Shown piece after piece: positions 883 to 20,868 of a stretch of DNA of 20,868 nucleotides. The first letter of the stretch is position 1. The number at the start of each line of letters is the position of its first letter. This stretch comes from a virus. The DNA lies in IMG/VR virus record IMGVR_UViG_3300020158_000019, positions 1-20,868 of that record; one strand, written 5' to 3'. Under the pieces are notes generated by a model, which did not search any database, was not told the DNA's origin, and saw only the letters and a program-made list of their open reading frames with translations. The translations under genes were made by a program, and so were the position numbers.

Positions 883-3276
883 TTATACAATTACCCAGTT
901 TGAACCTGTCGGGATAGTCACAGTAATACCAGTATTGATGGTAATAGGACCAGCCGATTGACCATTTGCACCAGTTGTCATTGTATAGTTACTGGTAATA
1001 GTTTGTCCATTCTCCCATACGCATCCATTTGCAAAACTACTATTAGAAGCATTTGTAGCGTTTGTTGCCGTTGTTGCTGTTGTGGCAGTTGTAGCTGTTG
1101 CCGCATTTCCTGTGCATGAGCCTGAAGAACCAGTTGTGTTTTGATTTAGCGTAGGAATATCTGCGGCTTGAATTGTAGACATAACGACATTCGTGCCGTT
1201 GCCACGAAGATAAGAGCCGCTAGTAACTGCTCCAGCAAAAGCGTTCATCGCTAACTGTGCTGTCGTTGTTCCTGTTCCGCCGTTTGCAAGACTTAAAGTA
1301 CCAGCAAGGGTAATAGCACCAGCAGTAGCGGTAGAAGGAGTAAAGCCAGTTGTGCCAGCACTAAATGTCGTTACACCACCAGCCGCACCGCTAGATGCCG
1401 CAGTAATGCGACCTTGTGCATCTACTGTAATATTTGTATTAGTGTAAGAGCCAGCCGTAACAGCAGTATTAGCAAGAGCAATAGTTCCTGATGTTGTAAT
1501 TGTTCCGCCTGACAATCCTGTTCCAGCAACAATACTTGTAACTGTTCCTGTATTTGAAGTGTATCCGCTAGGGTTAGATGCCGCATAAGCACCTAAATTA
1601 GTTAATGCTCCACCCGCAGTCGTAGCTCCAGTACCACCATTTGCAATAGCTACTGTTCCCGTAACATTAGACGCCGTTCCAGTAGTGTTTTGATTTAGCG
1701 TAGGCACATCAGCCGACAATAAAGCACGGAATGTTGGCACACCAGCAACTCCATTAGGAGCAATCAATAGTTGATTAGCCGTCTGACTTGCAAAGTTTGA
1801 GGCTGTTACTGCAAGAGTGCCACCTAAAGTAAGGTTGCCTGATGTAGTAACTGTGCCTGTTAAAGTTAAACCGCTAACTGTTCCAGTACCACCCACAGAA
1901 GTAACTGTTCCTGTATTGCTTGTTTTGTTGTTAAATGTTGTCCAATCTGCGGCACTTAAAGCACCACGATTAGTCGCTGAAGCAGTTGGAACATTCAAAG
2001 TAATAACTGGAGTGGTTGTCCCAGTAGCAACAGTTGAACTTAAATCTGTTCCAGTTGTGCCTAAAGTTAATGCCGCAACGCTAGTAACTGTTCCTGTATT
2101 TGATGTAAAACCGCTAGGATTAGAAGCCGCATAAGCCCCTAATGCTGTTAAAGCTAATGGAGCTGTGATAGCACCAGTACCACCATTGGCAATAGCGACT
2201 GTGCCTGTTACATTGGCAGAAGTACCAGTTGTGTTTTGATTTAGCGTAGGAAATGTGCAGTTAGTTAATGTTCCGCTTGATGGTGTACCCAACGCACCGC
2301 CTACTGTTACATAAGAGCCAGCCGCTTGTTTGCCATTAAATGTATTCCAATCAGTAGAAGTCAAATATCCGCTTACTGTAGTTGTAGCGGCTGGCATTGA
2401 AATAGCAGGAGTATTGCCACCGCTACTGACTACTGGTGCTGTTCCTGTAACGCTAGTAACTGTTCCACCGCTTGAAGGTGCTGTATTAGTAACAGTAAAG
2501 TTAGGGTAAGTACCAGTAACACTAATTCCTGTGCCATTTGTAAAAGCTACAGTTTGGTCAGGAGCAGTATTTGTAATAGTTAAAGTACCGCTTGCTGTTA
2601 TAGGACTACCAGTAACGCTTATTCCTGTTCCAGCAGTTGCCGCAACAGAAGTAACTGTGCCAGTTGTAGATGATGTACCAGCACCAATAGCAGTTCTAAA
2701 GGTTGCCGCATCTAATGTACTTACTGTGTTATCTGCATTGATTCTTGGGAATGTAATAGCTGTAGGATTGGTCAGCGTAAAGAAATTTTGACCAACAGTA
2801 GTACCGCCAAGACTTGTTCTGCCTGTTGCCGCAACAAGACTTGTAGCACCGCCATCCCATCTTAAATTATTAGTGTAAGCAGTATCCCAATTTGTCTGAC
2901 TAGCTGTAGTAGGTATTGAATAACCAGCAGTCAATGTAACCGCTAATGTGCCAGTTGTTGTAATTGGTGAGCCTGTTACTGTAAGACCAGTAGGCACAGT
3001 CATAGCAACGGAAGTAACTGTTCCACTACCTGATGCAGTTGCGTTAATCCAATTAGTGCCGTTGTATTGTAATACTTGATTAGTAGACGGAGTTGTAATA
3101 ACTACACCGCTTAACGCTGGAAGTGTGCCAGCACCTACTTGGACAATGGATGTGCCATTGTTAATATAGATTTTTTGGTCTGCCATATTAACTGCTAACT
3201 CTCCCGAAGTAGTGTTAGCAGTTGTAGGCACATTACTAGCCGTATTACTACGCTTTGGTTTTATTACATTAGCCAT
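883..3276 (-). CDS. Large repeat-rich tail fibre protein (797 aa)
   Basis: Predicted extended adhesin on the virion tail. Residues 1-50 form a collar-like N-terminal domain (SGELAVNMADQKIYINNG) of the kind seen at the start of many phage tail fibres and resembling the N-terminal domain of major tropism determinants. The body (about 60-720) is low-complexity beta-rich Thr/Gly/Ser sequence with six copies of GTVTS[VI], several NGGTG motifs and three copies of PTLNQNTTG spaced 182-183 residues apart. A tract of A-T-T/A-T-N triplets lies near residues 727-744. The last ~45 residues (from WENGQTIT to SNWVIV) match the end of the 155-residue protein at 7603-8070. The RBS AGGGA is 6 bp before ATG. 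It is probably a trimeric receptor-binding fibre. Confidence 0.88.
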   Translation of the reverse strand: MANVIKPKRSNTASNVPTTANTTSGELAVNMADQKIYINNGTSIVQVGAGTLPALSGVVITTPSTNQVLQYNGTNWINATASGSGTVTSVAMTVPTGLTVTGSPITTTGTLAVTLTAGYSIPTTASQTNWDTAYTNNLRWDGGATSLVAATGRTSLGGTTVGQNFFTLTNPTAITFPRINADNTVSTLDAATFRTAIGAGTSSTTGTVTSVAATAGTGISVTGSPITASGTLTITNTAPDQTVAFTNGTGISVTGTYPNFTVTNTAPSSGGTVTSVTGTAPVVSSGGNTPAISMPAATTTVSGYLTSTDWNTFNGKQAAGSYVTVGGALGTPSSGTLTNCTFPTLNQNTTGTSANVTGTVAIANGGTGAITAPLALTALGAYAASNPSGFTSNTGTVTSVAALTLGTTGTDLSSTVATGTTTPVITLNVPTASATNRGALSAADWTTFNNKTSNTGTVTSVGGTGTVSGLTLTGTVTTSGNLTLGGTLAVTASNFASQTANQLLIAPNGVAGVPTFRALLSADVPTLNQNTTGTASNVTGTVAIANGGTGATTAGGALTNLGAYAASNPSGYTSNTGTVTSIVAGTGLSGGTITTSGTIALANTAVTAGSYTNTNITVDAQGRITAASSGAAGGVTTFSAGTTGFTPSTATAGAITLAGTLSLANGGTGTTTAQLAMNAFAGAVTSGSYLRGNGTNVVMSTIQAADIPTLNQNTTGSSGSCTGNAATATTATTATTATNATNASNSSFANGCVWENGQTITSNYTMTTGANGQSAGPITINTGITVTIPTGSNWVIV
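1046..1099 (-). repeat. 9-bp-period low-complexity tract inside the long fibre gene
   Basis: Six consecutive 9-bp units on the plus strand (agaagcatt, then gtagcgttt, gttgccgtt, gttgctgtt, gtggcagtt, gtagctgtt) encode Ala-Thr-Thr or Ala-Thr-Asn triplets, read on the minus strand. Units are degenerate at third codon positions, so selection acts on the protein repeat more than on exact DNA identity. Such tracts can change length in frame. Confidence 0.7.
1136..2250 (-). repeat. Three-copy long-period repeat in the fibre gene (period 546-549 bp)
   Basis: An identical 20-bp stretch (gtgttttgatttagcgtagg on the plus strand) occurs at 1136-1155, 1685-1704 and 2231-2250, encoding PTLNQNT. Spacings are 549 and 546 bp, both multiples of three, so the protein period is 182-183 residues. 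In the two units that start at 2250 and 1704 the first ~57 residues are nearly the same, running from TLNQNTTG through VAIANGGTGA, GAYAASNPSG and SNTGTVTS. The third copy leads into the C-terminal tip. Confidence 0.8.
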
Positions 3277-7602: not shown

Positions 7603-8070
7603 TTAGACGATTACCCAATTAGAGCCTGTTGGTACTGTAACAGTTACTCCGTTGTCGATTGTTATATCTCCAGCACTCATAGCATTTTTACCAGTTGTAA
7701 TAGTATAGCTTGCTGTAACTACTTGCTCATTCTCAAAAAATATCTGATTGTTTCCGCCACCTGTAGCACCAGCCCCAATAGCACCCCATTCCGAGCCATT
7801 GTAGCCTTCAAATTGTGAATAGTCACTATTGAATCGTATATAGCCTGAGCTAGGACTGCTATCTCTCTGAGAAGTTGTGCCTACTGGTAATTTTTCTGAG
7901 CCAGTAATGGAAGTAATAACACCTAAATTGATACGAGCATTAGTAGCAGAAGTAGCTCCAGTACCGCCATTAGTAATAGATACAGAGTTATAAAGACCAG
8001 CAGAAGCATCTAACTGTCCGCTTGTATTTGTAAAATTTGCCAGTTGGCTTAAATTAAAGGCTTGTGTCAT
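7603..8070 (-). CDS. Short tail fibre protein with a shared C-terminal tip module (155 aa)
   Basis: 155 residues in three parts. The N-terminus (MTQAFNLSQLANFTNTSGQL, then LYNSVSITNGGTGATSATNA) is a common fibre leader. The middle (PVGTTSQRDSSPSSGYIRFN, then FEGYNGSEWGAIG) is a compact domain frequent in phage fibres. The end (FENEQVVTASYTITTGKNAM to SNWVIV) matches the end of the 797-residue fibre: 29 of 44 residues by hand alignment. ATG at 8070 overlaps the J-like gene's stop in ATGA, so it is translated directly after the hub and is probably the hub-proximal fibre. Confidence 0.83.
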   Translation of the reverse strand: MTQAFNLSQLANFTNTSGQLDASAGLYNSVSITNGGTGATSATNARINLGVITSITGSEKLPVGTTSQRDSSPSSGYIRFNSDYSQFEGYNGSEWGAIGAGATGGGNNQIFFENEQVVTASYTITTGKNAMSAGDITIDNGVTVTVPTGSNWVIV

Positions 8071-12182: not shown

Positions 12183-12862
12183 ACAATAGCCTCAAATGCT
12201 TTGAATGCTTGATTCCAGCTAACAAACGAATCATTAGTCATAGGTATTAAAGTATAGTTTGGATATTGCTGAAGTATGACAGGAAAAGTTATTCCTGTAT
12301 AAGTAGAGCCGCCCATTGATACAGTAGTCCCGTATTGACCTATAACTGCATTTATTGGACTCGATAAGCTAGATATAAGGTTGCGATGAACAGGGATAGA
12401 AACAGTAGACCCACTACCACGCAATACATCAGATGTAGCAATATACGCATATCTCCCCACTTGGCAAAAATCTCCAGCCTTAACAATATAAGCTGTAGAA
12501 CTAATAGAAGGTAAAGAACCTAAAACTAATATTTTATTAGCGGATGCAATCTGCCATTGGCAAGTAGCTATTTGTCCCGAAGTCATGCTACCTTGATAGG
12601 CAACATAATTAACCCATCCAGTAGGAGTGAAGTTTAAATATTGTTCTAACGATTTATCGTAGTAACGAAGATTAGCTAATAAATCACGGCTCTGAGAATA
12701 TAGTTGGAAATTATTAGGTTTAAATTCAAATTGGAATGGCACATTAGTAACAATCTCACTTGTGCTAATTCGTTGATTACGGCTAATAGCTTGACCAACA
12801 AATCTTTGGTCAGTAATAGATACTTGTTCTGAAATAGAAAGGATAGTAGTTAGGTTTGCCAT
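12179..12862 (-). CDS. Distal tail protein-like (227 aa)
   Basis: 227 residues. The N-terminal half has ISISEQVSITDQRFVGQAIS-like wording and a strand-rich stretch (TNVPFQFEFKPNNFQLYSQS, then DLLANLRYYDKSLEQYLNF and GWVNYVAYQG), and the C-terminal half is beta-rich (AIVGRYAYIATSD-like strands, then PVILQQYPNYTLIP). It is the first gene after the tape measure, the usual place of the Dit/lambda-M-type protein that caps the tube's distal end. Its ATG shares an A with the tape-measure stop (TAATG). I recognise the family from other phages as an unnamed tail protein; the Dit assignment rests on position. Confidence 0.7.
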   Translation of the reverse strand: MANLTTILSISEQVSITDQRFVGQAISRNQRISTSEIVTNVPFQFEFKPNNFQLYSQSRDLLANLRYYDKSLEQYLNFTPTGWVNYVAYQGSMTSGQIATCQWQIASANKILVLGSLPSISSTAYIVKAGDFCQVGRYAYIATSDVLRGSGSTVSIPVHRNLISSLSSPINAVIGQYGTTVSMGGSTYTGITFPVILQQYPNYTLIPMTNDSFVSWNQAFKAFEAIV

Positions 12863-14805
12863 TATCTGCTCGCTGGTAAACTTCTTTGTGCATTTAGATT
12901 AGCCGCCCAAACTGCTTGCTGATTCTTAGCAAGAAACTGCGTTGCAGATTGAGTGTCAATGGCTGATAGATTTGCAATATATGGACCATTGTAAGTAACT
13001 CCACCGCCACCGCCCATTACATCGCTTAATTGATTATTAGGGACAATAGTTCCAGCACGATTTGGAATAAATAATTCGGGTCCATGTTCACCTACAAGGC
13101 TTGGCACTCCTACTGGAGGACTACCGCCATCGGCAAATCCTTGTGCCGCTAACATAGCTGTTTGTTGAGAACCAACATTTGTTCCATATTGCATTGCAGT
13201 TCCAATATTTAAACCGCCCATAAATCCAAACATTGAACTAATGCCTTGCATCATTAACATTCTTAATTGAATTTTAATAAGGTCTTTTATAATACTTGAA
13301 GCTAAATCACCAAAAGATATTTTCCCAGTTTCAACAAAATTATCTAATGCTGAATTCATATTTCCAGTAAAACTGGTAAACATATCTTCAGCCATTTTTC
13401 CGTAATTTTTAGAATCTTCTGCATATTGTTGAAACGCTTTATCCCATCCATAAGCGAAAGTTCTTTGAGCTTCAATAGCACCTTCTTCTTGTATGCGAGT
13501 AGTTTCAGCAAATGCTTTACCTAGTTCTTTTACTTTTTCAATTTGGTTATCATACTCAGCAAGAATTTTTTTATCTGCTCCACGACCAGCCGCATCTTCT
13601 CGCTTCTTAGTTATTTCATCAATTTTTTTGCTAGTATCATCTAATGCTTTTTGTACGGCTTGATATATTCTAGCTTCGTCTTTAGTCATAGCCAATATAG
13701 CTATTTCATTTCTTTGCTTCTGTTCACTAAATTCGATTTGTCTTTTATATTCAACAGATATTAATCTTGTTACTGCTAACATTTCTTCTAGCTTTTTAGC
13801 TTCGCTAGATAATTGTGTTGTTCTATCTTTCTGTGGAGTTACACCTTTAGCAGTAGTAGTCGGGTTCATTAGCTCTTTAGCAAAGGCTCTATCTGCTTCA
13901 CGTAGCTTGCCTACGTATTGGTCATACTCTTTTAATCGTTGGCTAAATGTATTGAACTTGCCATTAGCCATATCATCTAAAGTAAGTCCAACTAAATTTA
14001 CTGCGGCATTTATTGTTTGTAGAGCAGTAACAAAAAGCCGAACATCATAGATTACTGCCTTAAAAGCAAGTCCCGCTATGAACATAAAATCTTCCATAGC
14101 ACTTCCCGCTTTGTTCATTGCATCAAAAACAGTATTCATCGCTGGCAAAAAAGTAGCGGTAAACATTAAAGTAGTACGAGTAGCTTTAGCAGTAAGTTTG
14201 TCATGCAAGTCTGCGGCTGTTGCTACAGCATCCGCATATTTTTGCCATGCTCCATCACCTTCTTTGATTAGGTCGTTGAAATTGACCATATCTACACCAC
14301 GCATACCTTTACCCATTAACTGAATTTTTATATCAGTCATGGTTGCGATATCCCCTAGCTTGGCAATCCCAGCTACAGTTCGGTCAAATAGCTTTGCTGT
14401 GTCTCCGCTACTTAAATCTTTTAATGAGATGCCTACCTTTTTAAAGGCATCTTGCAAAGATTGAGAGCCCATAGCGGCTGAAGAAATATTGGCATTAAAT
14501 TTTTCTAATACTTTGCCTACATTGTCAAATTTACCGCCTGACATTTCTAAAGCATCGCCAATTTTTAATACGCTGGCAATAGTATGGTTAGTAGAATCGG
14601 CAGTATCAGAAATAGAATCTGCAAAGTCCATAGCGTGCTTTGCCATGCCAATAAAAGCCGCACCTACAGCTAGAGCCGCCATTGGAGCTTTAGCCGCTAA
14701 GTTGTTTGTAAAGTCATTTAGCGACTTTTTAGCCGATTCCATGCCCATTACAAAATCGCCTGTTTCTAAGGCTAGAACCACTCCAAGTCTTGCTGTATTT
14801 GCCAT
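12862..14805 (-). CDS. Tail tape measure protein (647 aa)
   Basis: Sets tail length and is later ejected into the host envelope. Start MANTARLGVVLALETGDFVM is the typical opening of these proteins. An N-terminal hydrophobic stretch spans about 34-56, and further hydrophobic helices lie near 210-275. Residues ~330-450 are charged and coiled-coil-like. The C-terminal part contains AYGWDKAFQQYAEDSKN and FGDLASSIIKDLIKIQLRML, typical of lambda-type tape-measure C-termini. The end has FADGGSPPVG, VGEHGPELFIPN and GTIVPNNQL. RBS GGAG lies upstream of ATG 14805. At the usual ~0.15 nm per residue, 647 residues predict a tail near 95-100 nm (inference). Confidence 0.95.
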   Translation of the reverse strand: MANTARLGVVLALETGDFVMGMESAKKSLNDFTNNLAAKAPMAALAVGAAFIGMAKHAMDFADSISDTADSTNHTIASVLKIGDALEMSGGKFDNVGKVLEKFNANISSAAMGSQSLQDAFKKVGISLKDLSSGDTAKLFDRTVAGIAKLGDIATMTDIKIQLMGKGMRGVDMVNFNDLIKEGDGAWQKYADAVATAADLHDKLTAKATRTTLMFTATFLPAMNTVFDAMNKAGSAMEDFMFIAGLAFKAVIYDVRLFVTALQTINAAVNLVGLTLDDMANGKFNTFSQRLKEYDQYVGKLREADRAFAKELMNPTTTAKGVTPQKDRTTQLSSEAKKLEEMLAVTRLISVEYKRQIEFSEQKQRNEIAILAMTKDEARIYQAVQKALDDTSKKIDEITKKREDAAGRGADKKILAEYDNQIEKVKELGKAFAETTRIQEEGAIEAQRTFAYGWDKAFQQYAEDSKNYGKMAEDMFTSFTGNMNSALDNFVETGKISFGDLASSIIKDLIKIQLRMLMMQGISSMFGFMGGLNIGTAMQYGTNVGSQQTAMLAAQGFADGGSPPVGVPSLVGEHGPELFIPNRAGTIVPNNQLSDVMGGGGGVTYNGPYIANLSAIDTQSATQFLAKNQQAVWAANLNAQRSLPASR

Positions 14806-15156
14806 TTATTTTTCTCCAAACAATACTGAGGGTGCATTAGGACTCATCATGGCAAAAGCCAATAAGTTGTCGCTTGCTAACTGTTTCTTGTCTTGTTCTA
14901 GTAATGGCGGGTACAAGTAATCATAGACCTGCGGGATAATGTCATTGAGTTTATATGGTGCAGAACCTTTTGGCAATACTTTGTTAAATTGTCCAGCCGT
15001 TAATGCACCAAGAACTTGAATGATTCCTAAGTTACCTATTACTCCATCGTTATACATAATGCAAATATCTGCAAAAGTGTCTTGGTCTATTACTGATGGG
15101 TCAGCTCCGTGTGCAGTCAAATAGGCTTTGACTTGCCTTCCGACTGACCTAATGAC
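14806..15156 (-). CDS. Tail assembly chaperone C-terminal (T) part, made by -1 frameshift
   Basis: This frame codes 116 residues plus stop and lies between the G-like gene and the tape measure. It has no ATG: the first initiation-type codon is TTG at 15120 and no RBS precedes it. The frame stays open upstream through the end of the G-like gene to the GGGAAAG heptamer at 15162-15156. A -1 slip there fuses 160 residues of the G-like protein to VIRSVGRQVKAYLTAHGADP and onward, giving a 276-residue product (15635-14806). The segment contains FADICIMYNDGVIG and LYPPLLEQDKKQL and is helical. In lambda the GT fusion binds the tape measure and recruits tube protein; I infer the same role. Confidence 0.85.
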   Translation of the reverse strand, partial: VIRSVGRQVKAYLTAHGADPSVIDQDTFADICIMYNDGVIGNLGIIQVLGALTAGQFNKVLPKGSAPYKLNDIIPQVYDYLYPPLLEQDKKQLASDNLLAFAMMSPNAPSVLFGEK

Positions 15157-15635
15157 TTTCCCCGAGTAGATGAATACTCAGGTGAAATAGTTTCTGCAAT
15201 CTGTTCCATTACTTGAACTTGGATGGAGAAAGGAAATAGCTCGTCAATCATTTCATAAGTAATAGTTGCCATGTCAAAACCTTCTTCTTCGGGAACAAGG
15301 AATTTAAACATCTCAGTAATCTGTCTATCAGTATTAGATTTATGAGTAGCGGCTTCACGCATAGAACGACCATCGAGTATTACGTCATGCTCTAAAAACT
15401 TTATATCCATTCCTTCTACAGCATCATCTTTATGAGCAATAAGGTCTGCAGTAAGTTTGCTGTAATACTTCTCAATAGCTTCTTCGTCTTTAATTTTAAG
15501 ACGTTCATTCATTGCTTCTACCTCAGAAGTCAATGGGACTTTAACTTTGAACGTATGACTGCCTAATTCAAAAGTTCGTGTCCGTACAACAATCTTATTA
15601 AATTTCCCGCCAAATGCTTGTGCTAAATCAGCCAT
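15117..15635 (-). CDS. Tail assembly chaperone, G-like (172 aa)
   Basis: 172 residues, starting MADLAQAFGGKFNKIVVRTR, with a beta-like N-terminus (ELGSHTFKVKVPLTSEVEAM) and helices further on (EEAIEKYYSKLTADLIAH, FKFLVPEEEGFDMATITYEM). Size, charge and the position between tube and tape measure fit lambda gpG. The last dozen codons after the slippery heptamer encode a hydrophilic tail (SLGQSEGKSKPI) absent from the frameshift product. ATG 15635 has the RBS AAAGG and overlaps the previous gene's end by 8 bp. It probably coats the tape measure before tube polymerisation. Confidence 0.85.
   Translation of the reverse strand: MADLAQAFGGKFNKIVVRTRTFELGSHTFKVKVPLTSEVEAMNERLKIKDEEAIEKYYSKLTADLIAHKDDAVEGMDIKFLEHDVILDGRSMREAATHKSNTDRQITEMFKFLVPEEEGFDMATITYEMIDELFPFSIQVQVMEQIAETISPEYSSTRGKSLGQSEGKSKPI
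15156..15162 (-). promoter_or_regulatory. Programmed -1 ribosomal frameshift site, G GGA AAG
   Basis: On the minus strand the heptamer GGGAAAG occupies 15162-15156. In the G-like frame the codons are CGG GGA AAG, so it reads G GGA AAG in the phase needed for tandem -1 slippage. The same heptamer is the known lambda G/GT shift site. After slippage the -1 frame (GTC ATT AGG TCA ...) stays open into the T-like region with no stop. Confidence 0.88.
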
Positions 15636-16182
15636 ACAATACCTTTCTCGCTTGTCTTACCTTGTATTTTTCTAATGCTATCTTTAATGTATTACTTAAT
15701 GAGTTTACTACAGCTCCAGCGTTGCTTTCTAGGGCTGGTCTGAGATAAGGTCTAGCGGCTACATTAGCTGTGCCGTATTCCATAGCGACTGCCCGTGCAT
15801 CAGGCTTTCCAATAATTTTGTGCTTCTTATCTTTCTTGGCATCGTAAGAGCCTTTGATGTCATATACCTTAAAGCCTTTTGCCAGCCGTTTAAGATTAGC
15901 GGTAGTCACTACGGCAATTACTGCATCCGTTGATTTAACATATTTGCTATTAAGGTCACGTCTTGATGGTCGTCTTGCTTCTATATGTAATGAAGCCCTA
16001 AGTTGACCTGTATCAGAAGGAGCTAGAGTCCTTGCTGTAGATAGAACGGGAGCCATAGACATACGAACTGCGGAAGTCAATATGCCTTGTGCATCTTTCG
16101 GACCAAAATCGACTTGCATTTGATTTAGCAATTCGATTAACTCTCTACCGCCCGTAAATCCAAATTTGACGTTATATGCCAT
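15628..16182 (-). CDS. HK97 gp10-like head-tail / tail-completion protein (184 aa)
   Basis: It contains GGRELIELLNQMQVDFGPKD, the APSDTGQLRASLHIEAR motif, and near the end AVAMEYGTANVAARPYLRPA, which are the landmarks of the HK97 gp10-like family: DTG-x-L-R-x-S, then an E-[YF]-G-T ... ARP-[YF]-L-RPA motif. Family members complete the head-tail or tail-tube interface. I chose ATG 16182 (MAYNVKF) because GGTGA sits 5 bp upstream; ATG 16194 would add four residues and lacks a good RBS. Both overlap the end of the preceding gene. Unusually, it follows the tube gene instead of preceding it. A KKDKKHK patch lies near residues 119-126. Confidence 0.83.
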   Translation of the reverse strand: MAYNVKFGFTGGRELIELLNQMQVDFGPKDAQGILTSAVRMSMAPVLSTARTLAPSDTGQLRASLHIEARRPSRRDLNSKYVKSTDAVIAVVTTANLKRLAKGFKVYDIKGSYDAKKDKKHKIIGKPDARAVAMEYGTANVAARPYLRPALESNAGAVVNSLSNTLKIALEKYKVRQARKVLYG

Positions 16183-16408
16183 TGCTTTCACCATTCTTAA
16201 TCATCTTATTGTAGATAGCATTATTTAATGCCATTACATATTCAACGACTTCTTCGGGTGAAATTTTGTCTGCATGAATCTTAGCAATCTCATACGCAGT
16301 ATGGATGCCAGCAATACGTTGTTGATGAAAGCCAAACCAATTCTTAGTTCCCGAATTGGATTGGCTAATCAGGAAACTCAATAAATCATTATTCGATTGA
16401 ATCTGCAT
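16172..16408 (-). CDS. Small phage protein of unknown function (78 aa)
   Basis: 78 residues, mostly helical by composition (NNDLLSFLISQSNSGTKNWF, then QQRIAGIHTAYEIAKIHADK and EEVVEYVMALNNAIYNKMI). No membrane segment, catalytic motif or family that I recognise. ATG at 16408 overlaps the 52-residue gene by 20 bp and has no strong RBS, so translation probably depends on the upstream gene. Its location after the tube and before the gp10-like protein suggests a tail-assembly accessory role. Confidence 0.7.
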   Translation of the reverse strand: MQIQSNNDLLSFLISQSNSGTKNWFGFHQQRIAGIHTAYEIAKIHADKISPEEVVEYVMALNNAIYNKMIKNGESNGI

Positions 16409-16556: not shown

Positions 16557-17051
16557 TTAAGCTGAATTGCTCCAGCCGTATTGATTGCCACGTGGGTGGA
16601 TAGTAAACACACATTTGGATTCAGCACCGGGCTGTGCATCTATATGGAATTGACTTACTCGACCATTGAAAGCGTAGTAAACAATGTTTGCTCCATCAGT
16701 AGCAGAGATAACATAAGTGCGGTCAACTGTTCCGCTATAAGCATCGCCACGAATCAATAGCAAGTTAGCATCGCTAGGATTCCAAGCGGCTGTTATTGTC
16801 ATTGAAGTTGGTGCTGACTGTGTAGGGATTTTGTCTGACTGACGACTACCAGCAACCATAAAAGATGCAACAGCATCGTCTTGACCAAAAGTAGGGACAG
16901 CTTCAACTGGTACTAAATTGTTTGTTACTGCAATAGCAGAAACAGAAGCTAACACAGAAAGGTTTGCAGTAGTCAAAGCAGTAGGAGATGCACTTGGTTG
17001 CATATAGAGTGCCGCACTAAAGCCGGGTAATACTTTATTTGGGAGAGCCAT
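16557..17051 (-). CDS. Major tail tube protein (164 aa)
   Basis: 164 residues. It begins MALPNKVLPGFSAALYMQPS, a pattern typical of tube proteins with a beta-sandwich core. Further landmarks are TFGQDDAVASFMVAGSRQSD, SAPTSMTITAAWNPSDANLL (a tube-type T-x-x-x-x-W-P/NPSD feature), RTYVISATDGANIVYYAFNG and VFTIHPRGNQYGW. Length and position, between the terminator-like gene and the gp10/chaperone genes, match a siphovirus tube subunit assembled as stacked hexamers. It has a good RBS (AAAGGAC) in a 34-bp gap. Confidence 0.87.
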   Translation of the reverse strand: MALPNKVLPGFSAALYMQPSASPTALTTANLSVLASVSAIAVTNNLVPVEAVPTFGQDDAVASFMVAGSRQSDKIPTQSAPTSMTITAAWNPSDANLLLIRGDAYSGTVDRTYVISATDGANIVYYAFNGRVSQFHIDAQPGAESKCVFTIHPRGNQYGWSNSA

Positions 17052-18498: not shown

Positions 18499-19530
18499 TT
18501 AAGCTCCGTAGAGACGGACACCAGCAAATACATCACGAATAGAAGAACATACACGCTTCTCAGCATACAAAGTAATAAAGCCGGGTGCTGTTTGGTCTAG
18601 ACGTTGAATAGTCATATCTTCACGGTCTGCAATAGAAAAGAACTTGTCCCATTCAGCAAGGTACACGGGATAGTGACCCGAAGCCGCAGTCTCCATGTAC
18701 GCATTAGGGATTACAGGCATACCAAAAACATAGAGAACAGAACCGCCATCATCATCGCCAACCTCTAAGAACATAGGTGAGCCGCCAGTAGATGCTTTTA
18801 ATTTACGCAAAGCACCAATGGTAGTTGGGTGCATCATCCAAGCTGTTGTTGGTTGATACAAATACTGGGCTGGCAACTTGGCTTGTAAGTTAGCTAAGTC
18901 GTCATAAGAAATTGCTGTTGCAGATGCTTGTGCTACTTGTAATACTGTATGCAAGCCATCAGTCATAGCACTTCCGCTAGAGCCAAATGATGCGGCAGAG
19001 GTAGAGCCAGCGTAGCTATTTAATCCACGCAAACCAGCCGTGCCGCCATACGTAGTAGTCGTAGAACCTGATTGGTCATTGTTATACATCATAGATTGAG
19101 CTTCAATTTGGCTGAACTCTAAAGCCAAGTCTGCAACAATCGCTTCTTCTAAATAATTTACATCCTCTAAAACTGCTGTGCGGATAGGCAGAGAAGCATT
19201 GATAACTTGCAAAGGCAATTCCCAAAATACTGTTGCTGTGTTGGGACTACCTGTATTGTCTTTAACTCCATATCCCCATGGGTTTGTTGGGTCAGTAGCA
19301 TTACCGACTTTAGCAACAAAGGCTTCTTCTGAGCCGATAGTAGGAAATTGTCTTGCTACTTTACGTAATGGGTTAGCCAAACGTAGTGAAGCGAAGGCAT
19401 CGTCATAAATTACACGACCACCAACCCCTGAACCAGAACCAGTAAGGGCTGATGCTTCTTTTAAATTTACAGTTGCTTTGCCATGAGTAATGGCTTCCTT
19501 AACAGCTTCGAGAATAAGATTGGTTGTCAT
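18499..19530 (-). CDS. Second HK97-fold major capsid protein paralogue, no delta domain (343 aa)
   Basis: 343 residues. From KEASALTGSGSGVGG (about 24-38) it aligns along its whole length with the upstream capsid protein: LRLANP, AKVGNA, IEAQSMMYNNDQSG versus VEAQSMILNSDQTD, YGGTAGLRGLNSYAG, and the end DQTAPGFITLYAEKRV. It lacks the long coiled-coil N-terminus of its neighbour and starts almost at the mature core (MTTNLILEAVKEAITHGK). It could be a second shell subunit, a pentamer (vertex) subunit, or the product of a duplication. RBS GGAAT precedes ATG at 19530. Confidence 0.85.
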   Translation of the reverse strand: MTTNLILEAVKEAITHGKATVNLKEASALTGSGSGVGGRVIYDDAFASLRLANPLRKVARQFPTIGSEEAFVAKVGNATDPTNPWGYGVKDNTGSPNTATVFWELPLQVINASLPIRTAVLEDVNYLEEAIVADLALEFSQIEAQSMMYNNDQSGSTTTTYGGTAGLRGLNSYAGSTSAASFGSSGSAMTDGLHTVLQVAQASATAISYDDLANLQAKLPAQYLYQPTTAWMMHPTTIGALRKLKASTGGSPMFLEVGDDDGGSVLYVFGMPVIPNAYMETAASGHYPVYLAEWDKFFSIADREDMTIQRLDQTAPGFITLYAEKRVCSSIRDVFAGVRLYGA

Positions 19531-19580: not shown

Positions 19581-20868
19581 TTAGGTTGCAGTACCAGTAG
19601 AACGGAAACGAATAATGCTGAATGGGTCTACAACAGAAGTTGCCAAACGCTTCTCACCAAAGAAAGTGATATAGCCTGGCAATGTCTGGTCGTATCTACG
19701 CAGAACCATGTTCAAGCGGTCAACGATGGTAAAGCCTTTTTGCCAGTCCCCAAAATACATTGGATAGAGGCTAGTTGTACCAGCAGAGCCAGTAGTTGTC
19801 TGTGAAGGAGTAGAAAGATATTTGTTAACTACTACATCAAAGCCTAACAACTGACCAACGATGCCATCAGTACGAGCCAAGCCATCAACATAGATTGGGC
19901 GACCTTGTGAGTCTACCAAGCCACGAATTGCTTGCAACAAGATTGGGTTGATAACAAACTTAGCTGTCTCAGTCCAATATTGTTGTGGCAAGCTATATAC
20001 AAAGTTGATAACGTCTTTATAAGTGATGGCATTAGCACCAACTGTATTTACGTTTGAAGTCAACTGGTCGTATGTAGCAATGCTATGCAAACCGCTTGAA
20101 GAACCTGTACCGCTAGTACCGAAAGCGGCTGTAGAGATTGTTCCACCAGCGTATGTAGCATTAGCACCAGCGTATTGATTTAGACCACGCAGACCATTTG
20201 TTCCACCATAAGTATTAGGTGAATCAGTTTGGTCGGAGTTCAAAATCATACTTTGTGCTTCGACTTGTGAGAATTCAGCAAGCATGTCTGATACAACATT
20301 GCTTTCCAAACCATCAATGTCATCCAAAGCGGCAGTACGGATTGGGAACTGTACGTTCAAATCTTGCAAAGTTAATTGCCAAATATTGGTGTTTTCAGTT
20401 GTGGCAGAGCCATTGTTTTGAATTGAGTAACCCCAAGTAGCACCAGCATTGCCAACTTTTGCACGGAATTGATAAGTAGAGCCATCAGTAGCTACTCCAC
20501 GTGCAACACCACGCATTGGATTAGCAAGACGCAACGGAACGAATACTGGGTCATAGGCAGTACGACCACCTACACCAGCACCGCCACCTGTCAATGCAGA
20601 TGCTTCTTTGAAGTACGCATCATATTGACCAGCATCTTCAAACATTTTGATTTCTTTTTGCACACGGGCTTCGCCAGCAACAAAAGACTTCAACTGTTCT
20701 TTAACTGAACGATTAACTTCAGAAGAAATAGTTTTGTAAGTCTTTATTAAAGAAGGAGCTTGAATAGAGGCAACTTTGGCTTCTAATGCGGCAACTTTTT
20801 CTTCAAAAGATACAACTGCTTCTTCAACTTTTTTTACTGCTTCGGCTTTGCCTTCTTCAATCTTAGCA
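19581..20868 (-). CDS. HK97-fold major capsid protein with delta domain, 5' end cut by window edge
   Basis: 428 residues are visible and the frame is open to the right edge. Visible residues 1-36 are a charged coiled coil (KIEEGKAEAVKKVEEAVVSF, FEEKVAALEAKVASI), as expected for the HK97 delta/scaffold domain. The segment VKEQLKSFVAGEAR links it to the core, which begins near KEASALTGGGAGVGGR. Core landmarks are PVFVPLRLANPMRG (N-arm/E-loop region), FSQVEAQSMILNSDQ, TYGGTNGLRGLNQYAG, a PILLQAIRGL helix and the ending RRYDQTLPGYITFFGEKRL. The TTG near 20693 is internal and not the start. A cleavage site near the delta/core junction is inferred. Confidence 0.92.
   Translation of the reverse strand, partial: AKIEEGKAEAVKKVEEAVVSFEEKVAALEAKVASIQAPSLIKTYKTISSEVNRSVKEQLKSFVAGEARVQKEIKMFEDAGQYDAYFKEASALTGGGAGVGGRTAYDPVFVPLRLANPMRGVARGVATDGSTYQFRAKVGNAGATWGYSIQNNGSATTENTNIWQLTLQDLNVQFPIRTAALDDIDGLESNVVSDMLAEFSQVEAQSMILNSDQTDSPNTYGGTNGLRGLNQYAGANATYAGGTISTAAFGTSGTGSSSGLHSIATYDQLTSNVNTVGANAITYKDVINFVYSLPQQYWTETAKFVINPILLQAIRGLVDSQGRPIYVDGLARTDGIVGQLLGFDVVVNKYLSTPSQTTTGSAGTTSLYPMYFGDWQKGFTIVDRLNMVLRRYDQTLPGYITFFGEKRLATSVVDPFSIIRFRSTGTAT

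Follow-up and report, generated by a model that had tools for sequence, protein, structure and literature searches.

A covarying RNA stem follows a predicted -1 frameshift site between tail-assembly chaperone-like genes of a long-tailed phage and its relatives

Introduction

Frameshifting between genes G and T is widely conserved in long-tailed phages, and the ratio of the G to the GT product is critical for tail assembly in lambda (PMC5009743). In certain tailed phages, the shift has been described as seeming to proceed without stimulatory signals (PMC5009743), and structures downstream of the slip site have been called rare (PMC3091744). The P2 E/E+E' pair is likewise produced by a tail-chaperone -1 frameshift, again located between tail tube and tape measure, but its heptamer is TTTTTTG and no downstream hairpin has been reported (PMC3091744). 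A putative tail-assembly -1 site in corynephage phi16 has a predicted 3' RNA structure, a pseudoknot; that proposal concerns one genome with another slip sequence and an internal Shine-Dalgarno element, and the accessible part of the report holds no comparative evidence for the structure (PMC5506516). A 3' structure thus has precedents. In the accessible papers that we searched, we found no comparative proof of such a structure for any family of tail chaperones, so that its novelty is provisional.

We analyzed a stretch of 20,868 nucleotides from a virus (IMG/VR record IMGVR_UViG_3300020158_000019, positions 1 to 20,868), hereafter the window. Its tail region resembles that of lambda gpG/gpGT in that a G-like gene is followed by a T-like reading frame in the -1 frame and then by a tape-measure gene. 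A first-pass annotation of the same DNA had proposed a G/GT-type frameshift and had noted that lambda uses the same heptamer; in the lambda sequence, an in-phase G_GGA_AAG is indeed present close to the 3' end of G. No fold follows the site in lambda (z -0.12), whereas the family to which the window belongs has a covarying stem at +6 nt. G-T frameshifting is already known, and the features of the present variant are this stem and a sister clade that keeps only an A_AAR-stop element. We estimate from sequence comparison, at a probability of about 0.93, that ribosomes entering at a single start codon produce two tail-assembly chaperones at this locus by programmed -1 frameshifting.

Homologue Collection and Statistics

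A search with the G-like protein returned 35 loci, giving a first set of 36 sequences including the window. More distant relatives were collected with a profile search based on T, which was later extended; they fall, together with the first set, into two clades, A and B. Many loci derive from overlapping searches of the same contigs, and statistics therefore count distinct sequences only. A scan of a genome contigs collection found no relatives. The alignment used for RNA structure analysis does not include the row for phage P19250A. For permutation tests, synonymous codons were swapped among sequences with amino acids kept, in 2000 rounds, and step counts were made on trees for which the remainder of the T sequence was used.

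The Slip Site in the Window

The G-like open reading frame (15117..15635, minus strand) encodes 172 amino acids, the first 160 of which would be common with a fusion product. The first-pass annotation had placed GGGAAAG at 15162-15156 in the zero frame of this gene, and this proved exact to the base: the heptamer G_GGA_AAG (15156..15162, minus strand) lies in the codons CGG GGA AAG, which specify Arg-158, Gly-159 and Lys-160. It is the only copy of GGGAAAG on both strands of the window. Given the codon usage of the window, R-G-K would be spelled as the heptamer with a probability of ~0.009 (~0.03 for K-G-K). In the -1 frame, the last stop before the heptamer lies 15 nt upstream, and the frame is then open for 123 codons up to the T-like stop at 14806, with a G/T overlap of 58 nt. 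From the slip site to the T stop it is uninterrupted, as the proposed fusion demands. The T-like part (14806..15156, minus strand) comprises 116 amino acids plus stop. A shift at the heptamer would hence yield the 160 + 116 = 276-residue fusion that had been calculated before, reading ...SSTRGK-VIRSVGRQVKAYLTAHG... with the junction ...TRGK-VIRSVG... The T-like frame was also said to have no ATG start, and we find none before its codon 34; the sole earlier start-like codon is a TTG at codon 13 (15120). Every prediction from the first-pass reading that could be tested on sequence held.

In the lineage of the window, which includes L002-L007, the zero frame runs on for a 12-residue tail after the slip site, SLGQSEGKSKPI (15117-15156, minus strand), and most relatives stop directly. 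The zero-frame stop 36 nt after the slip site is thus an unusual trait of this small lineage.

Slip-Site Conservation in Clade A

Homologues had been named as the test of whether the heptamer is conserved in phase. An exact GGGAAAG, in phase and inside the G/T overlap, is present in 36/36 sequences of the first set, far above chance, and the conservation holds down to 46-47% identity in G. In four relatives (L015, L032, L033, L035) the overlap measures seven bases, TAA-GGGAAAG-TAA, so that the heptamer is the whole overlap and a -1 shift into T is hardly possible elsewhere. The 79 distinct slip sites of clade A are GGGAAAG (59), GGGAAAA (14), AAAAAAA (4), GGGAAAC (1) and GGTAAAG (1), all of the form X_XXY_YYZ except the last, which is a near form. 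This slip-site class has been retained across about 9 parsimony steps, and a zero-frame stop follows the site directly in 66 of the 79 sequences.

The codon that provides the first G of the heptamer is AAG in 44 members of a 70-sequence clade A set and AAA in none. As AAG accounts for 32% of the lysine codons in the window, this exclusive choice points to selection on nucleotides. An upstream Shine-Dalgarno-like stimulator of the dnaX type, an optional feature, is not conserved: we found no AGGAG, GGAGG, GGAG or GAGG before the slip site, and AGGA occurs in 17/70 clade A and 17/47 clade B sequences and not in the window. Transcriptional slippage was set aside, as GGGAAAG contains no long homopolymer, although AAAAAAA or a longer run occurs in four distinct sequences of clade A.

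Conservation of T begins at the slip point. In a 21-row alignment, the post-slip residues V, S, V, Q and V (positions 1, 4, 5, 8 and 9) are invariant or nearly so. T is thus conserved from the slip point on without a conserved start codon, which is the pattern predicted for a fusion product.

A Covarying Stem 3' of the Slip Site

Neither the RNA stem described here nor the slip-site variants of the sister clade formed part of the first-pass reading. RNAalifold, run on 17 relatives, places the beginning of a stem six nt after the heptamer. In the window, the spacer occupies 15150..15155, the 5' arm 15140..15149 (alignment A5 columns 14-23) and the 3' arm 15099..15109 (columns 54-64), all on the minus strand. 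The conserved stem is 8-10 bp long, with one mismatched pair in the window (column 22). Among 63 distinct clade A sequences, 97.9% of the cells are paired, and covariation reaches 0.270 compared with 0.168 in shuffles (0/500) and at most 0.073 in slid controls. Clade B (39 sequences) has a stem of other sequence after a spacer of the same length; here 99.7% of the cells are paired, a value that is partly built in because the stem was drawn by eye before counting, and covariation, which is not affected by this, is 0.159 compared with 0.066. In both clades the covariation score exceeds that of every shuffle and every slid control. When all column pairs were scanned, the two highest covarying pairs in each clade were wobble-wobble pairs of the stem.

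Clade A (n = 80) has 781 paired cells compared with 739 +/- 3.3 after synonymous-codon permutation, and clade B (n = 54) has 479 compared with 446 +/- 2.5, with 0/2000 rounds in either case (Z 12.7 and 12.8, respectively). The mean folding energy is 3.6-3.9 kcal/mol below that of the permuted sequences. Columns 18/60 of clade A changed in 14, 13 and 14 steps for the 5' base, the 3' base and the pair, and the corresponding counts for stem pairs in clade B are 7/7/7, 7/8/8 and 6/7/7. Such near-equal numbers for bases and pairs indicate that the stem changed repeatedly, with nearly every change matched by one in its partner. For the 65 nt that follow the slip site, mean z is -4.4 in clade A, where 62/62 sequences are below -2, and -3.8 in clade B (97%); the window itself has z -2.7 to -3.5. 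At four other offsets mean z is about 0; a strong local fold is thus found only directly after the site. These findings together make the existence of a conserved base-paired stem at +6 nt well supported by the sequence comparison.

An inner loop hairpin (A5 columns 31-36/42-47), which is part of the minimum-energy fold of the window, was rejected because its covariation equals the shuffle mean. No pseudoknot partner stands out in a covariation scan to +90 nt.

Clade B and Phage P19250A

The slip sites of clade B are mostly NTCAAAG, with GGAAAAG, TGCAAAG, CCAAAAG, TCAAAAG and GTCAAAA also present and GGGAAAG found twice. HK97 gp13, in which a -1 frameshift is annotated, has GGAAAAG in phase near its end, the same bases as in several of these sites. 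A zero-frame stop directly follows the site in 53 of 54 clade B sequences. Their common element consists of A_AAR, the stop and the stem, and the XXX triplet is absent from most sites (L117-L278). Judging from the bases, dual-tRNA re-pairing at NTCAAAG looks poor. For heptamers with AAG at the end, single-tRNA slippage by the modified lysine tRNA has been described in bacterial systems (PMC7618472). It appears about an even bet that the two clades form a large, mostly uncultured phage family with stem-stimulated G-T frameshifting, in which clade B would use a non-canonical, stem-dependent variant: most of its slip sites would have lost the P-site half of the heptamer, and slippage would rest on the stem and on a single tRNA-Lys on A_AAR by the stop.

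An isolate, the Methylophilaceae phage P19250A, encodes homologous G and T halves in its genes 0013/0014 (42% and 32%, respectively). Gene order in P19250A agrees with that in the window as far as the tape measure, and P19250A likewise has a stem at +6 nt and a zero-frame stop directly after its slip site, which is GTCAAAG rather than the GGGAAAG of the window. The halves have been deposited as two hypothetical proteins with no frameshift noted. Pairs of 'hypothetical proteins' in such phages should be joined in annotation as a tail-assembly chaperone pair.

Interpretation of the Locus

In the mechanism we propose, most ribosomes would stay in the zero frame and terminate at the stop of the G-like gene. 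A minority positioned on G_GGA_AAG would meet the hairpin six nt downstream and slip by -1 into T. Drawing on lambda, we would expect both forms to bind the adjoining tape-measure protein and the T part to recruit subunits of the tail tube. From its position, the stem is likely a stimulator of frameshifting, and it probably sets how often the slip happens.

An error in sequencing or assembly that breaks one continuous gene is a general concern with metagenome contigs, where frame breaks are sometimes errors. The same break is however common to more than 100 distinct sequences from many contigs and to the genome of the isolate P19250A, and this reading is already refuted. It is also very unlikely that the heptamer is incidental and T a separate gene, whose translation would start at the TTG at 15120 or would be coupled to that of G, with ribosomes reinitiating once they have passed the G stop. 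The TTG does overlap the G stop in the window (TTGA), and P19250A has been deposited with its own T-like CDS, but the codon is not conserved (many relatives have another Leu codon; TTA, CTA and CTG occur), the first 33 codons of T contain no ATG in most clade A sequences, and a product started at codon 13 would lack the conserved residues that precede it. In addition, in the relatives with a seven-base overlap the G stop is upstream of codon 13 rather than at it, and the invariant in-phase slip site would be left without explanation.

A programmed frameshift could also be real and the stem serve another role, for example in mRNA stability or in protection from nucleases. The stem is tied to the slip site by position only, and stems in mRNAs can have other functions. 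Yet in either clade a stem begins at a distance of exactly six nt from the slip site, even though its sequence and the codons that contribute the 3' partners differ; -1 stimulators are usually located there, and a comparable fold is absent at the four other offsets. We thus regard a different role of the stem as rather improbable and favor stem-stimulated frameshifting. A stem whose position stays at +6 nt across both clades and more than 100 distinct sequences, with differing stem sequences and slip sites, provides a natural series in which the trade-off between slip site and stem can be tested.

The G-like and T-like Proteins

The G-like protein belongs to no Pfam or PHROG family, has no detected sequence similarity to lambda G or to HK97 gp13, and a PDB sequence search returned nothing convincing. 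Its structure model (pLDDT 79.8) matches YqbN (3klu, Z 6.7), PICI ORF19 (5ir0, Z 6.4), the HK97 chaperone gp13 (2ob9, Z 5.6) and 3fgx (Z 5.3), and the next match drops to 2.8. The assignment of G as a tail-assembly chaperone derives from a named tail-assembly chaperone among these four clear matches, whose Z values are only middling, and from the adjoining tape-measure gene; based on the model, it is good but not certain. T likewise has no Pfam or PHROG family. Its structure model is too poor to assign a fold, and most of its matches in a viral library are unnamed proteins. Very probably, the G-T pair functions like lambda G-T yet lies outside the lambda gpG/gpT sequence family and represents a sequence-novel family.

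Gene Neighborhood

The window contains the structural module of a long-tailed phage, including capsid, an HK97-gp10-like protein, tape measure and the central tail fiber J. The first-pass reading is borne out here as well: two overlapping open reading frames, the second in the -1 frame, precede a tape-measure gene (12862..14805, minus strand; Tape_meas_lam_C, E 7.6e-21; PHROG tape measure) that starts directly after the T stop, in keeping with a G/GT arrangement.

The gene order in lambda is Z-U-V-G-T-H. In the window, the HK97-gp10-like gene (neck/tail completion; 15628-16194, minus strand) lies between a tail-tube-like gene (16557-17051) and G, whereas in lambda its counterpart precedes the tail-tube gene. 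At the corresponding place, P19250A carries a CDS of comparable size. Two adjacent capsid-family open reading frames (18499-19530 and 19581-20867, minus strand) are 42% identical over ~340 amino acids and thus look like tandem capsid paralogues; in P19250A, the matching place is occupied by a capsid gene and, after it, a hypothetical gene of similar size. Finally, two separate fiber-like open reading frames (883-3276 and 7603-8070, minus strand) have almost identical terminal motifs (ITI..GVTVT/ITVTIPTGSNWVIV), a similarity that suggests modular duplication of surface genes.
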